A stretch of DNA of 43,912 bases from Frankia tisae. Lineage in GTDB: Bacteria; Actinomycetota; Actinomycetes; Frankiales; Frankiaceae. The stretch covers positions 1 through 43,912 of the forward strand of contig NZ_JANEZT010000006.1 of NCBI RefSeq assembly GCF_025403405.1. Direction: 5' to 3'. Positions 5,002 through 11,960 of this stretch are shown here, one piece after another. Each line of letters opens with the position of its first letter. Position 1 is the first letter of the stretch. The translations under genes and the position numbers were made by a program. Below the pieces are notes generated by a model. That model made no database searches. It saw only the letters and a list, made by a program, of their open reading frames with translations, and was not told the DNA's origin.

Positions 5002-6324
5002 ATGAGTGACGCGCCGATCGTCCGCCCCCTGCCCGTCAGTGGTTTCCCGGAGTGGCTGCCCGAGGTCCGGATCGTCGAGCAGCGCTGGCTCGACACGATC
5101 CGGGCGACCTTCGAGCGTTACGGCTTCTGCTCGGTGGAGACCCCGTCGGTCGAGGCTCTGGACGTGCTCACCGCGAAGGGGGAGACCTCCCAGGAGGTCT
5201 ACACGCTGCGCCGCCTGCAGGCCGACGCAGACGACGACAGCGCCCGCCTCGGCCTGCACTTCGACCTGACCGTGCCGTTCGCCCGGTACGTCGCCGCGCA
5301 CTTCAACGAGCTCGTCTTCCCGTTCAAGCGCTACCAGATGCAGCGGGTATGGCGCGGTGAGCGACCCCAGGAGGGCCGCTTCCGCGAGTTCACCCAGTGC
5401 GACATCGACGTCATCAACGTCGACCGGGTGCCCCTGCACTTCGACGCCGAGCTGCCCCGGATCGTCCACGAGGTGCTCGGCACCCTGGGCGTCCCACCCT
5501 GGACCCTCAACATCAACAACCGCAAGGTGCTGCAGGGCTTCTACGAGGGGCTGAGCATCGGCGATCCGCTCGCGGTCATCAGGATCGCCGACAAGATGGA
5601 CAAGATCGGCCCCGACGGCGTCGCGAACCTGCTCGCAGCCCAGGCCGGACTCGACGCCGACCAGGTGCGGGCCTGCCTCGATCTCGCCGCGATCCGGGCG
5701 ACGGGCCCCGGGGTCGTCGACGAGGTGCGCCGCCTGGGCGTGAAGTCGGATCTGCTCACCGAGGGCCTCGACGAGCTCGCCCAGGTCCTCGACGACCTCG
5801 CCGACCTGCCCGCGGGCAGCGTCGTCGCGGACCTGTCGATCGCCCGCGGCCTCGACTACTACACCGGCACCGTCTACGAGGCGAAGTTCGTCGACTGGCC
5901 CGACTTCGGCAGCATCTGCTCCGGCGGTCGGTACGAGAACCTGGCCGGCTCGTTCATCCGCCGAAGCCTGCCCGGTGTAGGCATCTCCATCGGCCTGACC
6001 CGCATCTTCGCCAAGCTCCTCGCCGAGGGCCTGCTGCCGACCGGCCCGGCGAGCCCGGCCGACGTGCTCGTGGTCGTCCCCGCCGCCGAGCGCCGGGCGG
6101 CGGCGCTGGCCACCGCGACGGCGCTGCGCGCCCGCGGGCTGAAGGTCGAGACCTACCACCAGCCGGACAAGCTGGCCAAGCAGATCCGGTACGCCGCCCG
6201 CAAGGGCATCGGCTTCGTCTGGTTCCCCCCCTTCGACGAGGGCCGGGAGCACGAGGTGAAGAACATGGCGACCGGTGAGCAGACCACCGCCGACCTCACC
6301 GCCTGGCACCCGACCTCGTCCTGA
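5002..6324 (+). CDS. hisS: Histidyl-tRNA synthetase (divergent type)
   Basis: 440 residues, a full-length class II synthetase that charges tRNA-His. Visible: motif 2 region RVWRGERPQ then RFREFTQCDID; the histidine-specific loop GLDYYTGTVYE; CSGGRYENL; and the C-terminal anticodon-binding domain from about residue 340 (ADVLVVVPAAERRAAAL). Start at ATG 5002 has GAGGAG at 4983-4988. The oddity is the sequence HFDLTVPFARYVA in place of the LRPEGTA block known in common bacterial HisRS; DLTVPFARY is closer to archaeal/eukaryotic-type and some other bacterial HisRS. It is followed by a terminator-like hairpin and appears monocistronic. Whether it is the only HisRS of the genome or a second copy cannot be seen here. 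Confidence 0.93.
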   Translation: MSDAPIVRPLPVSGFPEWLPEVRIVEQRWLDTIRATFERYGFCSVETPSVEALDVLTAKGETSQEVYTLRRLQADADDDSARLGLHFDLTVPFARYVAAHFNELVFPFKRYQMQRVWRGERPQEGRFREFTQCDIDVINVDRVPLHFDAELPRIVHEVLGTLGVPPWTLNINNRKVLQGFYEGLSIGDPLAVIRIADKMDKIGPDGVANLLAAQAGLDADQVRACLDLAAIRATGPGVVDEVRRLGVKSDLLTEGLDELAQVLDDLADLPAGSVVADLSIARGLDYYTGTVYEAKFVDWPDFGSICSGGRYENLAGSFIRRSLPGVGISIGLTRIFAKLLAEGLLPTGPASPADVLVVVPAAERRAAALATATALRARGLKVETYHQPDKLAKQIRYAARKGIGFVWFPPFDEGREHEVKNMATGEQTTADLTAWHPTSS

Positions 6325-6881: not shown

Positions 6882-7724
6882 GTGTCGGAGCCGGCGTCCG
6901 AACCGAATTCCGGGACGGCGTCCCAGGCGGTACCCGACGCGGTGACGCCGGGGTCCGCGGTGGCGCCCGCCGGCCGGGCGACCGCCCGGATGCGGGTCCA
7001 GGTGATCGCGAGGACCGAGTTCCTCCCACCGGCGGACGTGCCGTGGAGCACCGATGCGGACGGCGGCCAGGCGTTGGCGGAGTTCGCCGGCCGGGCCTGC
7101 TACCAGAGTTGGAGCAAGCCCAACCCGGCGACCGCGACCAACGCCGGCTACCTGCGTCACATCCTCGACGTGGGGCATCTGTCGGTGCTCGAACACGGCA
7201 CCGTCTCGCTCTACCTCACCGGTGTGTCCCGCAGCCTCACCCACGAGCTGGTCCGCCACCGGCATTTCTCCTACAGCCAGCTCTCCCAGCGGTATGTCCC
7301 CGAGCACGACGCGGCGATCGTCGAGCCCGAGATCGTGGCCGGTGACCCGGAGCTGCACGCCTTGTTCGAACAGGCGGCGGCGGCGTCCCTGGAGGCGTAT
7401 GGCCGGCTGCTGGAGGGGCTGGAGAAGCGGTTCGCCGACATCTCCGCCCCCACCTCGCGGCGCAAGCAGGCCCGGCAGGCCGCCCGCTCGGTCCTGTTGA
7501 ACGCGACCGAGACCCGCATCGTCGTCACCGGGAACTATCGGGCGTGGCGGCATTTCATCGCGATGCGCGCCAGCGAGCACGCTGATGTGGAGATTCGCGG
7601 TCTCGCTGTCACGATCCTGCGCGAACTGCAGGCGGTGGCGCCCAACGTCTTCTCGGATTTCCGCATCTCCACCCTCGACGACGGCACGGAAGTCGCGTCC
7701 AGTCCGTTGGTCGGGGAGGGCTGA
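6882..7724 (+). CDS. thyX: Flavin-dependent thymidylate synthase
   Basis: 280 residues from GTG 6882. ThyX makes dTMP from dUMP using FAD/NADPH and methylene-tetrahydrofolate as carbon source. The signature RHRx7S is visible as [11 protein letters not shown] at about residues 125-135, followed by [26 protein letters not shown] and [12 protein letters not shown] are the family's substrate/FAD-binding helices. GTG 6882 was chosen because GGAGG (6872-6876) sits 5 bases upstream; the conserved domain begins only at Met 6990 ([11 protein letters not shown]), so the first 36 residues are an unconserved Ala/Ser/Pro-rich extension and ATG 6870 or ATG 6990 remain possible. In other actinobacteria thyX lies beside dapA and rnj; here about 4 kb of accessory genes separate them. 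Confidence 0.93.
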
Positions 7725-7762
7725 GGCAGCCGGCGCCAGGCCGACGGGAGGAGGAGCGGCGA

Positions 7763-8275
7763 ATGACCAGCGTCGTCGATGCAGTGCGGCCGGAGGACGA
7801 GGCCACCGGCCCGCTGTCCGCCGCGGAGCTCGAACTGCTCAACGCCTACTGGCGGGCGGCGAACTACCTGTCCGTGGGCCAGATCTACCTGCTGGACAAT
7901 CCGCTGCTTACCGAGCCGCTGCGGGCCGAGCACGTCAAGCGGCGGCTGCTGGGCCACTGGGGCACCACGCCGGGGCTGAACCTCATCTACGTCCACCTGA
8001 ACCGACTGACCTACCGCCGCCGCAATCACCAGAACCTGCACGTGCGCGGCTACATCGAGGAGGGGACGACCACCACCCCCTTCGGCATGGTCATGCTCAA
8101 CAACCTCGACCGCTTCCACCTCGTGGCCGACGTCATCGACCGGGTGCCGAGCCTGGGCGCTCGGGCGGCCCACGTTCGCCAGCGGATGGTCGATGCTCGC
8201 CTCGCCGCCCGTGCCTACACCCGCGAGCACGGCGAGGACGACCCGGAGATCCGCGACTGGACCTGGCCCTACTGA
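7763..8275 (+). pseudogene. Phosphoketolase reduced by a large in-frame internal deletion
   Basis: An intact frame of 170 residues whose two halves match opposite ends of the roughly 800-residue phosphoketolase (XFP) family. Residues 1-80 are the conserved N-terminus ([22 protein letters not shown], quoted in part; then [20 protein letters not shown]). From about residue 82 the sequence is that of the C-terminal domain: [47 protein letters not shown], and the terminal [17 protein letters not shown]. The junction is at about 7996-8015. All thiamine-diphosphate-binding and catalytic parts in between are gone, so it cannot cleave xylulose-5-phosphate. The frame, its start (ATG 7763 behind GGGAGGAGGAG-like purines) and the natural stop are preserved. 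It sits right before acetate kinase, the usual partner that turns the acetyl-phosphate product into ATP. A deletion allele, a retained small protein, or an assembly error are all possible. Confidence 0.88.
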
Positions 8276-8292
8276 CGGTGGCCGGTCTGACG

Positions 8293-9408
8293 GTGAACGT
8301 CCTGGTGGTCAACGCCGGGTCGGCCAGCCTCAAGCTGCGGCTGGTCGGCCCGGACGACAACCTGCTCGCCGACCGGGATCTCGACGCGCCCGCCGGCCAC
8401 GCCGACCCCGCCGAGCTCGACGCGGCGCTGGGCGAGCTCGCCGGCGCCGGGAACGGCGAGCCGGGTGCGGTCGGCCACCGCATCGTGCACGGCGGCACCG
8501 AGTTCACCCAGCCGGTGCTCGTCGACGAGGAGGTGGCCGACCGGCTGCGCGCGCTCACCGCGCTCGCCCCGCTGCACCAACCGGCGGCGCTCGACGCGCT
8601 CGACGCGGTGCGGGCGGCCCTTCCCGAGGCTGCCCAGGTCGCCTGCTTCGACACGGCGTTCCACAGCCGGCTGCCGGCGGCGGCGGCGACCTACGCCCTG
8701 CCGGCGGGGTGGCGGGAAAGGTACGGCATCCGCCGTTACGGCTTCCACGGGCTCTCGCATGCCCATGCCGCACGCCGCGCGGCGCGCCTCACCGGCGCTC
8801 GGCGCATCGTGACCTGCCACCTGGGCTCGGGCGCGTCGCTTGCCGCCGTCCTCGACGGGGTCGGCGTCGACACGACGATGGGCTTCACCCCGCTGGAGGG
8901 CCTGGTGATGGGCACTCGTTCGGGCAGCGTCGACCCGGGCGCCCTGCTGTGGCTGCAGACCGAAGCCGGCCTGAGCGCGGCGGAGCTCACCGAGGCGCTG
9001 TTCCGCTCAGCCGGGCTGCTCGGGCTCGCCGGCACCGCGGATCTGCGTGCGGTCGAGGCCGGCGCCGCCGGTGGCGACCCGGCCTGCGCGCTCGCGCTGG
9101 ACGTCTACCTGCACCGGCTGCGGGCGCAGATCGCCGCGATGACCGCGGCGCTCGGCGGGCTGGACGCCCTGGTGTTCACCGGCGGGGTCGGGGAGGGCTC
9201 GGCGGCGGTCCGCGCCGGTGCCGCGGCGGGACTCGGGTACCTGGGGGTGGCCGTCGACCCGGCACGTAACTCCGCACCCGCCGACGGGACGGTCGACCGC
9301 GAGATCGGCGCGCCGGGGGCCGCGGTGCGCACGCTCGTCCTCACCGCCCGGGAGGACCTGGAGATCGCTCGGGGGGTCCGGAGCGTCCTCGCCGGTGGCG
9401 CTGGGTGA
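8293..9408 (+). CDS. ackA: Acetate kinase
   Basis: 371 residues, slightly short but complete for the family. Catalyses acetyl-phosphate + ADP to acetate + ATP (reversible). Blocks seen: LVVNAGSASLKLRL at the N-terminus, GHRIVHGG, the catalytic region CFDTAFHSRLP, RRYGFHGLSHAHAARRAARL, GSGASLAAV, FTPLEGLVMGTRSGSVDPG and FTGGVGEGSAAVR. Start placed at GTG 8293, where the family fold begins; GTG 8278, three bases after the phosphoketolase stop, is in frame and also possible. It is in one operon with the truncated phosphoketolase; without that enzyme its acetyl-phosphate must come from another source. No phosphotransacetylase gene is in the window. The stop codon lies inside a 14-bp tandem duplication. 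Confidence 0.93.
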   Translation: MNVLVVNAGSASLKLRLVGPDDNLLADRDLDAPAGHADPAELDAALGELAGAGNGEPGAVGHRIVHGGTEFTQPVLVDEEVADRLRALTALAPLHQPAALDALDAVRAALPEAAQVACFDTAFHSRLPAAAATYALPAGWRERYGIRRYGFHGLSHAHAARRAARLTGARRIVTCHLGSGASLAAVLDGVGVDTTMGFTPLEGLVMGTRSGSVDPGALLWLQTEAGLSAAELTEALFRSAGLLGLAGTADLRAVEAGAAGGDPACALALDVYLHRLRAQIAAMTAALGGLDALVFTGGVGEGSAAVRAGAAAGLGYLGVAVDPARNSAPADGTVDREIGAPGAAVRTLVLTAREDLEIARGVRSVLAGGAG

Positions 9409-9436
9409 GTGGCGCTGGGTGAGCGGCGCTGGATAA
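9395..9436. repeat. 14-bp tandem duplication over the ackA stop
   Basis: GTGGCGCTGGGTGA at 9395-9408 and again at 9409-9422, followed by a third copy with three changes (9423-9436). The first copy supplies the ackA stop codon. Likely slippage. Confidence 0.85.
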
Positions 9437-9441
9437 AGCGG

Positions 9442-9497
9442 TAATCTCCTGATTCGTGCAGCCGAGGGGAGCCGTCGAGGGCGGAGGCTGGCGCTGA
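9442..9497 (+). promoter_or_regulatory. Promoter-like hexamer and upstream micro-ORF coupled to the next gene
   Basis: TAATCT (9442-9447) lies 8 bases before GTG 9456, which opens a 13-codon frame, VQPRGAVEGGGWR, ending in TGA 9495-9497. That TGA overlaps the ATG (9497) of the 550-residue protein as TGATG, the arrangement used for translational coupling. GGCGGAGG within the micro-ORF also serves as ribosome-binding site for the main gene. The -35 is not evident. Confidence 0.4.
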
Positions 9498-11149
9498 TGG
9501 CGTCCGCCGGTTCGGCTGGGGCCGGCCCCGGCCGGCTGTGGCGGTGGAGCCGGCGCGACGACGCCGAGCACGCCCCCGTCCTCGACCTCACCGACGTTGA
9601 CGAGGTCACGATGACCCTGCTCGCCCCGCCGGCGCCCTTCCAGGGACTGCGGCGGCGGGTGGTCGACCAGTTCACGATCCTCAGCGCCAACCGGTGCCGG
9701 CTGGCCCGCTCGGTCAACTGGGGTCCGCTGGACGCCGTACTCAACCAGGTCGTCCCGGTGACGGGTGCTGGCCGGGTGAACACCGTCGGCAGGCTGCCGC
9801 CCGAAGTGCTGGTACTGCTGCCGGTCTCCACGCTGTCCAAGCGGGCCCTGGTGGCCTTCGACCTCACCGGTCCGAGCGGTTCGGACGCGCACCTGATGCC
9901 TTACGGCACGTCGGTGGCTCTGCAGGGGAACCTCATCGCCGGGCTCGCCGATCCGCTCGGGGTGCCGCTGAACGGCCCGGCCCGCCGCATGGTCGACGCC
10001 ATCTCCCGGTTCCGCCCTGGCCGGCTGTCCGGCAACTACCCGCGGCTGGTCCCGGCGCGGGAACGTCCGCTGCGGCTCGACGCGATCCGGACCTACCTGG
10101 AACGCGAGGCCGAGCTCGCCGTGCCGGCGTCCCGGCTGGCCCGGTGGCAGGACCTCGTCGTCGACGCCGAGCGGGTGCTGGCCGCCGCTCTCGCCGAACC
10201 GTTCGACCCTCTCAGCAGCTCCGAGACGCTGCTGCTCGCCGTCGGGGAACTCTGGCGGGATCCGGACGTTCCCGACGGGCGCGAGCTGGACGCCGTCGAG
10301 CGGTACCTGACCGGGTTCACCGCCTGGATCGACGCGCTGGTCGGCGTCGGGGCGGCGGCCGAACCAGTGCTGACGACCGTGGCCGAGTACGGGCGGCGCT
10401 GGGAGGCTCTCGCTGCCGTCACCCTCGACCCCTACCGGCCGTTTCTGATCAAGACGAGTGAGGAGCTGCGCACCGTGCTCGTCCGCGGCCGTCCGGTGTT
10501 CGGCCGGTCCGCGCCGGTGTGGCGCCAACTGCTTCACCCGGCCGCGCTGGTCGACATCGACTCGGGCGGCACGGGCAGCTATCACGTCAGCATCGGCACC
10601 GACGACACGAGCATCGAGCTCGACACCCCGATGATGATCGACCTGTTCGGCGACCCGGTGCCGCGCACCTACATCGAGGACGTCCAGCGCAACCGGGAGG
10701 TGTACGCCTTCTACACCACCGACGCGCGCCGGCTGCCGCGGTCCCGGCTGGTCGTGGGGCTCAGCGTCTCCGCGGACGTCTCCCGCGTCACCGGCGCGAT
10801 CAGCCTGTTGATGCTGCTCACCGCGGGCCTGTGCGCCCTGCCGGTCGAGCTGGCTCCGGATGCCGTCGCCGTGATCACGCTGCCGTCCTCGTTCGCCGCG
10901 ACGGTCCTGCTCACCCGGGAGCGCAGCAGTCTGGCCGCCTGGGTCCTCGGCCCGGCGAAGACGACCCTGCTCGCCCTGCTGGTGACGCTCGCGGTCCTCG
11001 CCGGGTTGCGGGCCGCCGGTTGGCACGCCCCGCCCGATCCGCCGCCGCCCGCCCCGTCCACCGTGGCGACCGATCCGCCCGCGCGGCCCGCGGAAGACGC
11101 CGTGACCGTCCCTGACCGGCGCGGTGGCGGTACGCTGGAAGCTCTGTAG
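9497..11149 (+). CDS. Unrecognised protein with C-terminal membrane segments
   Basis: 550 residues that I do not recognise. Residues 1 to about 420 are soluble, mixed alpha/beta-looking, rich in Arg, Asp and Leu. About residues 434-500 hold two or three hydrophobic stretches (AISLLMLLTAGLCALPVEL; ITLPSSFAATVLL; TTLLALLVTLAVLAGL). The C-terminus is a Pro-rich tail (PPDPPPPAPSTVATD). There is no signal peptide and no known catalytic motif, so a large cytoplasmic domain anchored to the membrane by its C-terminus is the likely topology. GC-rich third positions and the GGAGG before ATG 9497 support that it is real. It follows ackA by 88 bases but has its own promoter-like element. Function unknown. 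Confidence 0.8.
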   Translation: MASAGSAGAGPGRLWRWSRRDDAEHAPVLDLTDVDEVTMTLLAPPAPFQGLRRRVVDQFTILSANRCRLARSVNWGPLDAVLNQVVPVTGAGRVNTVGRLPPEVLVLLPVSTLSKRALVAFDLTGPSGSDAHLMPYGTSVALQGNLIAGLADPLGVPLNGPARRMVDAISRFRPGRLSGNYPRLVPARERPLRLDAIRTYLEREAELAVPASRLARWQDLVVDAERVLAAALAEPFDPLSSSETLLLAVGELWRDPDVPDGRELDAVERYLTGFTAWIDALVGVGAAAEPVLTTVAEYGRRWEALAAVTLDPYRPFLIKTSEELRTVLVRGRPVFGRSAPVWRQLLHPAALVDIDSGGTGSYHVSIGTDDTSIELDTPMMIDLFGDPVPRTYIEDVQRNREVYAFYTTDARRLPRSRLVVGLSVSADVSRVTGAISLLMLLTAGLCALPVELAPDAVAVITLPSSFAATVLLTRERSSLAAWVLGPAKTTLLALLVTLAVLAGLRAAGWHAPPDPPPPAPSTVATDPPARPAEDAVTVPDRRGGGTLEAL

Positions 11150-11370: not shown

Positions 11371-11424
11371 CTCGGCTCTGTTCACCGCCTCGGCTCTGTT
11401 CACCGCCTCGGCTCTGTTCACCGC
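11371..11424. repeat. Perfect 18-bp tandem triplication
   Basis: CTCGGCTCTGTTCACCGC is present three times head to tail (11371-11388, 11389-11406, 11407-11424) without a mismatch, starting six bases after the small ORF. There are no unique spacers between units, so this is a minisatellite, not a CRISPR. Confidence 0.95.
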
Positions 11425-11960
11425 CTCTTGCCGGTTTGCCCGATGGCGGCCTGTGCAGCCGCGTCGGGCCTGGCGTCGGCGATCGTCGGCGGCGCGGAGC
11501 TTTCGACTGTTGGCCACCGCGGCCGACGGCGACGGCGGTGCCTCGAGCCGGGTGCTCATGTCCGGGGCGCCGGCCTGCTGGCGGACCGGGCCGGACGAGG
11601 CCGCGGGCGGGGCGCTCGGCGGTGGCAGCGGCCCGCCCCGCCGCGGCGGTTCCCGGCGCGGCGCCTGGGTGCCGGAGGTGGCAGGTGGGCGGACGAGGCG
11701 TGGTGGGTGCGGGGTGGCGTGAGATGTGCAGGGTGGTTGGTGATCGAGCGTGCGTAGGCGACCTGCCCGGCGGTGCGGCGGTGATGTCCGATCCGGGCGG
11801 ATCCGCCCTGCGCGGGCCGCGCCCGGCCTGGCCGGCGCGGCGGGTCGGGCGGACGATGGGTTCGCGCCGGGTGCCGCACGGTGCCTGGTAGGAGCACGGG
11901 TGGTTTGTTCGGTGGTCGGCGCTCCGCGTCGGCCGGAGAGATGATGTCGGAGGTGTGCTC
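11425..11960. other. Intergenic region before dapA
   Basis: About 535 bases. Several open frames run through on both strands but none shows consistent third-position bias, a ribosome-binding site and family resemblance together. I see no RNA gene and no strong hairpin. The right end contains the dapA promoter. Confidence 0.45.

Follow-up and report, generated by a model that had tools for sequence, protein, structure and literature searches.

The window analysed here, a stretch of 43,912 nucleotides from Frankia tisae (genome G000), carries a plus-strand cluster in which hisS (5002..6324), the conserved upstream anchor of the locus, and thyX (6978..7724) are followed by a 170-aa open reading frame at 7763..8275. 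Profile matches, structure alignments and relatives identify this frame as the relic of a phosphoketolase gene, xfp1, whose two ends are fused. It is preceded by a strong Shine-Dalgarno (SD)-like site, GGGAGGAGGAG (7746..7756, plus strand; anti-SD duplex -11.9 kcal/mol), and followed on the same strand by ackA (8278..9408), an acetate kinase gene that is intact, as the original prediction held, and that starts at GTG 8278 (alternatively GTG 8293) with no clear SD site of its own. Past ackA lie an unnamed open reading frame and then dapA and an RNase J gene (NCBIfam names). Upstream of dapA, at 11371-11427, there is a perfect 18-bp tandem repeat in 3.2 copies, CTCGGCTCTGTTCACCGC. A promoter and terminator scan of 7600-9700, of a kind that suits Frankia poorly, found nothing.

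The N-terminal piece of the relic (7763..8009, plus strand) comprises codons 1 to about 82 and ends in the junction repeat, as placed by alignment to the genes of three other Frankia genomes, G002, G003 and G012. The C-terminal piece (8001..8275, plus strand) begins in the same repeat and comprises the last ~91 codons of the ancestral gene and its stop. In Pfam terms, XFP_N covers relic residues 19-95 (profile positions 3-78 of 364, E = 4.2e-26) and XFP_C residues 79-168 (profile positions 113-202 of 202, E = 3.6e-32), and a solved phosphoketolase of 796 aa (8io8) aligns to the relic in two pieces, 12-82 and 705-796. Two separate stretches per solved full-length phosphoketolase were matched in all 10 rows of the structure alignment. 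The profile matches and the two-piece alignment to 8io8 confirm the fusion of phosphoketolase ends first proposed from the window alone, for which the size, coordinates, start and natural stop of the frame had also been given correctly. At 170 aa and with only partial XFP_N and XFP_C matches, the product falls short of the three-domain, ~800-aa architecture of the enzyme.

The original prediction pointed to the same locus in related genomes as a check. There, xfp1 is intact, at 809 aa, in the close relative G002, within the same thyX-xfp-ackA locus, and G003 and G012 likewise have the gene intact and of the same length, flanked by thyX and ackA. Against each of the three the window is shorter at the junction by 1,911 bp, which is divisible by three. 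In G002 both ends of the lost stretch carry the 9-bp sequence ACCGGCTGA; in G003 and G012 the two ends have only its first 7 bp in common. The window retains a single copy of the repeat (8001..8009, plus strand) with one base changed. The comparison bears out the proposed clean deletion, in frame and at short homology, of roughly 1.9 kb: 1,911 bp between 9-bp repeat copies. Since close relatives have intact orthologues at this locus and one copy is left of a short direct repeat at the deletion ends, the frame fits the class of in-frame deletion pseudogenes. Relative to the G002 gene, the N-terminal part of the relic has two synonymous and two non-synonymous changes and the C-terminal part four synonymous and one non-synonymous; so few changes are not enough to show that the stub itself is decaying.

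Where would the acetate kinase then obtain its acetyl-phosphate? The original prediction regarded the pathway as cut at one step, and also suggested looking for a second full phosphoketolase gene. Such a gene is present: contig C87 of G000 carries xfp2, complete at 811 aa and above the NCBIfam NF003619 cut-off. Because the genome carries an intact xfp2, the pathway is probably not cut, and AckA's acetyl-phosphate probably comes from xfp2. A protein search of G000 found one ackA, that in the window, and a search of the genome for phosphotransacetylase (PF01515) had no hit. Between G000 (C87, 19-2454; L136, also L152 and L153) and G011, the dS of xfp2 is 0.081, below the 0.12-0.21 of hisS, thyX, rnj and ackA for the same pair; the low value is a hint that xfp2 may have been exchanged recently within Frankia. 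In G003 and G012, genes from the downstream side of xfp2 are present and xfp2 is absent.

Across the 13 Frankia genomes searched, nine have xfp2 and no intact xfp1, and four (G002, G003, G010, G012) have an intact xfp1 and no xfp2, raw counts that ignore kinship. The xfp2 genes of the nine are 81-100% identical to that of G000. Of the four genomes with an intact xfp1, G003 and G010 each consist of a single contig; the assemblies of G002 and G012 are drafts, and in G002 a contig begins beside the expected place of xfp2. G012 has, on C648, an extra xfp1-like phosphoketolase gene (79% and 70% identical to the relic's two ends, 57% to xfp2) beside its intact xfp1, so in that genome redundancy was not by itself enough to remove xfp1. 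Judged by sequence, the mutual exclusion breaks down outside the genus: in a treeless tally by identity of 22 other genomes of the family, both types occur in 10 and the xfp1 type only in 11, and the remaining genome, G047, has an xfp2-type gene and an xfp1 relic.

The nine xfp2 genomes also differ in what is left at the thyX locus. Stubs stand before ackA in G000 (170 aa), G011 (43 aa) and G006 (44 aa). In G009 and G005 xfp1 is gone and ackA is retained, with its VLVVN codons 46 and 90 nt past thyX. In G001, G004, G007 and G008 neither xfp1 nor ackA was found within 1.5 kb after thyX, and the next open reading frame of the operon (9497-11149 in the window) directly follows thyX. G001 (L133), G004 (L134) and G007 (L135) carry, at a distance from thyX, an ackA that is more diverged; in G001 and G007 it directly adjoins xfp2 on the opposite strand. 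No ackA was found in G008 by protein search. Short phosphoketolase fragments outside the operon were seen at G009:C38:34787, G049:C208:34219 and G048:C4:9717.

The net xfp1 deletions amount to 2,298 bp in G011 and 2,292 bp in G006, both multiples of three. More of the gene start is left in G006 and more of the gene end in G011, so that neither stub is derived from the other. In a tree of hisS, thyX and rnj, G000 groups with G002 at a support of 1.00 and G011 with G012 at 0.94, and both of these partners have an intact xfp1. On this sequence comparison the G011 and G006 deletions are independent, larger than that of the window and in frame. Set against G002, G003 and G012, the G011 junction has an exact repeat of at most 5 bp and the G006 junction none of at least 4 bp, and the two deletions may have formed otherwise than by exact repeats. 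Just before the 44-aa stub of G006 (L130), after thyX, there are about three tandem CGGCGCTGTGACAGCC-like units, recognised by eye. A further in-frame xfp1 relic is found in another genus, in G047 (L195, 4148-4441), where residues 261-304 of the G002 gene are joined to 757-809; ECF-sigma-like frames (labelled by eye) replace the 5' part of xfp1, and ackA lies ~115 nt downstream of the relic.

Why should a start, a frame and a stop survive in front of ackA? An ackA-frame GTG lies 2 nt past the xfp stop in G000, G002, G003, G011 and G006. Against a baseline of 2,000 random window positions (median -3.1, 5% quantile -7.4 kcal/mol), the site of the relic stands out at -11.9 kcal/mol, compared with -3.5 and -5.1 near the ackA starts of the window. 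The stubs of G011 and G006 have sites of -12.2 and -12.0 kcal/mol; over the three genomes the near starts of ackA range from -3.1 to -5.1 (G013 was left out of this comparison). The acetate kinase is under purifying selection as judged from dN/dS (0.27 in the pair G000-G002 and 0.25 in the pair G006-G011; the five other measured pairs of the cluster are a little lower, at 0.16-0.20). An SD-bearing upstream frame with a nearby SD-less downstream start is the arrangement of a coupled leader and, because the site of the relic is strong, ackA lacks one and the gap is 2 nt, it is plausible that ribosomes reach ackA by way of the relic. In a wider survey the end of xfp could be placed in 48 of the 80 loci, with a same-strand ackA match at most 1.5 kb downstream in 29 of the 48; several of these 29 have strong ackA SD sites, and coupling is therefore not a general rule across phyla.

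It is possible, though on balance doubtful, that the stubs were selected as translational relays, that is, that only deletions keeping start, frame and stop survived since ackA needs handed-over ribosomes. All three Frankia stubs do keep SD site, start, frame and natural stop, with the difference in SD strength described above. The stub is missing wherever ackA has left the locus (four of four: G001, G004, G007, G008), and the short stub of G006 has drifted (pN/pS 0.43-0.71, on small counts) with its frame intact. Furthermore, the two other frames of the window, followed from a point 75 nt short of the xfp stop, run 968 and 1,107 nt beyond the VLVVN codons of ackA, one of them being the ackA frame itself, and G006 is alike; one other frame in G011 stops before ackA, so the argument from reading into ackA is not general. 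However, G009 and G005 keep ackA without any stub, with a weak SD site (-6.9 kcal/mol) and none (+0.9), and G012, with xfp1 intact, has a strong ackA site (-12.2). Moreover, the window case was noticed through being in frame, and the independent cases that count are two or three.

The kept frame itself weighs less than it may seem. As a null, exact direct-repeat pairs able to delete at least 1.5 kb were collected from the intact xfp1 of G002, G003 and G012. For G002, the fraction in frame is 0.58 with k of at least 5 (748 pairs), 0.70 for k of at least 7 (76 pairs) and 9/9 for k of at least 9; over the three genes, with k from 5 to 10, it ranges from 0.57 to 1.00, so that much of what such repeats could delete is already in frame. 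Repeat pairs at least 300 nt apart in five Frankia genes are in frame at 0.61-0.69 (6-mers) and 0.75-0.91 (9-mers). Codon-shuffled genes give about the same bias, which argues against the relay, and base-shuffled genes about one third (0.28-0.39). At k = 6, three AT-richer cyanobacterial xfp genes give 0.49-0.52 against 0.62; with 9-mers the same genes give 0.56, 0.67 and 0.85 on 9-15 pairs, which is not clearly lower. The bias is not a matter of GC only, and in-frame deletions are to be expected because of codon periodicity.

The stubs are in frame in three of three Frankia cases, one of them picked as in frame, and in four of four with G047, against a null of 0.57-1.00 for each. An initial reading of three out of three as selection, at (1/3)^3, was withdrawn after the direct-repeat control. 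Three in-frame stubs are unsurprising without selection, because the repeat null is high and one stub was seen for being in frame. Retention of the frame is no proof of selection; for G011 and G006, with junction repeats of at most 5 bp and none, the control has less force. The suggestion in the original prediction that the frame was kept to hold up ackA translation has evidence on both sides: the coupling anatomy and the two other in-frame deletions speak for it, and the mostly in-frame direct-repeat null against it. A general trap lies here, in that frame retention in GC-rich coding DNA is weak evidence for selection, because intragenic direct repeats are already mostly in the same frame.

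Could the 170-aa product itself be of use, as had also been proposed? The active-site model of a bifidobacterial phosphoketolase lists 13 residues numbered 64 to 553 (PMC10547157). Among those listed, only the equivalent of His64 lies in the kept part, as placed by structure alignments, and the other 12, numbered 97-553, fall in the lost part; judged by these ThDP and substrate-site residues, the relic would lack nearly all of the active site. An AlphaFold2 model, from an alignment of 37 full-length homologues (36 of the 62 full-length loci among 80, and G002), has a mean pLDDT of 56.8 and a pTM of 0.44; for residues 61-110 the block means fall to 26-35. That the stub is an enzyme, or folds as a whole, is very unlikely. 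A mini-protein with a function of its own, such as a regulator or partner of the full-length phosphoketolase, would fit the open frame with its good SD site, the predicted C-terminal helical part (residues 111-170, block pLDDT 67-91) and the single non-synonymous change of the C-terminal part relative to G002. Even so, it is highly improbable: the junction region has no confident predicted structure, the other two Frankia stubs, of 43-44 aa, lack most of the protein, and the event is too recent for substitution counts to speak. The poor predicted fold and the listed residues numbered inside the lost stretch likewise count against the earlier proposal.

The draft state of the assembly (882 contigs, 92.59% complete) could suggest a full gene collapsed onto itself, but there is very little chance of this, because the missing middle was found in the G000 contigs searched only as the 70% identical paralogue on C87, its one full-length match beside three matches of merely 27-55 bp, with similar deletions in G011 and in the single-contig genome G006. 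Assembler k-mers, moreover, are far longer than a 9-bp repeat.

The frame is most likely an ordinary pseudogene relic left after replacement of the gene by a paralogue. In its full form this reading, in which we have considerable confidence, is that xfp1 was dispensable beside xfp2 and recently lost 1,911 bp between 9-bp repeats. The deletion, repeats, intact orthologues, second phosphoketolase and SD anatomy observed directly would be connected as follows. The operon copy would have become dispensable once an intact xfp2 was carried, and recombination or slippage between the two 9-bp direct repeats would have removed the 1,911 bp. Start, frame and stop would have survived because both repeats lie in the same codon frame. 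The 170-aa product would no longer be an enzyme, and the stub would still be translated from its own strong ribosome-binding site. Ribosomes finishing at its stop may then continue into ackA, where no clear site is present, the stub serving as leader frame in a role that was formerly the full gene's.

Together with its relatives the locus amounts to a small natural experiment, in which an operon gene was lost independently in several Frankia and the downstream gene was kept. A tentative generalisation is that different Frankia lineages may each have whittled a redundant metabolic gene down to a minimal in-frame stub, left with no task but to carry ribosomes to the following gene, the codon periodicity of GC-rich genes making harmless in-frame deletions usual. 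Searches on Frankia phosphoketolase and gene loss, coupling and in-frame deletion found no literature report of the relic, which is not proof of absence.

Compared with known phosphoketolases (NCBIfam NF003619; XFP_N, XFP_C), the relic has in common both ends, the start, the natural stop and the operon place before ackA; it differs in lacking 637 of the 809 codons of the G002 gene and 12 of the 13 listed active-site residues. In-frame deletion pseudogenes between short direct repeats are a general class, with which it shares the end repeats, the single copy left and the lost interval; nothing essential is different, except that here the event is recurrent in one gene of several species. Leader frames with translational coupling in operons are likewise a general class. 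The relic resembles them in being an SD-bearing frame that ends 2 nt before a start without a clear SD site, and differs from them in that the putative leader is the remnant of a former enzyme gene.
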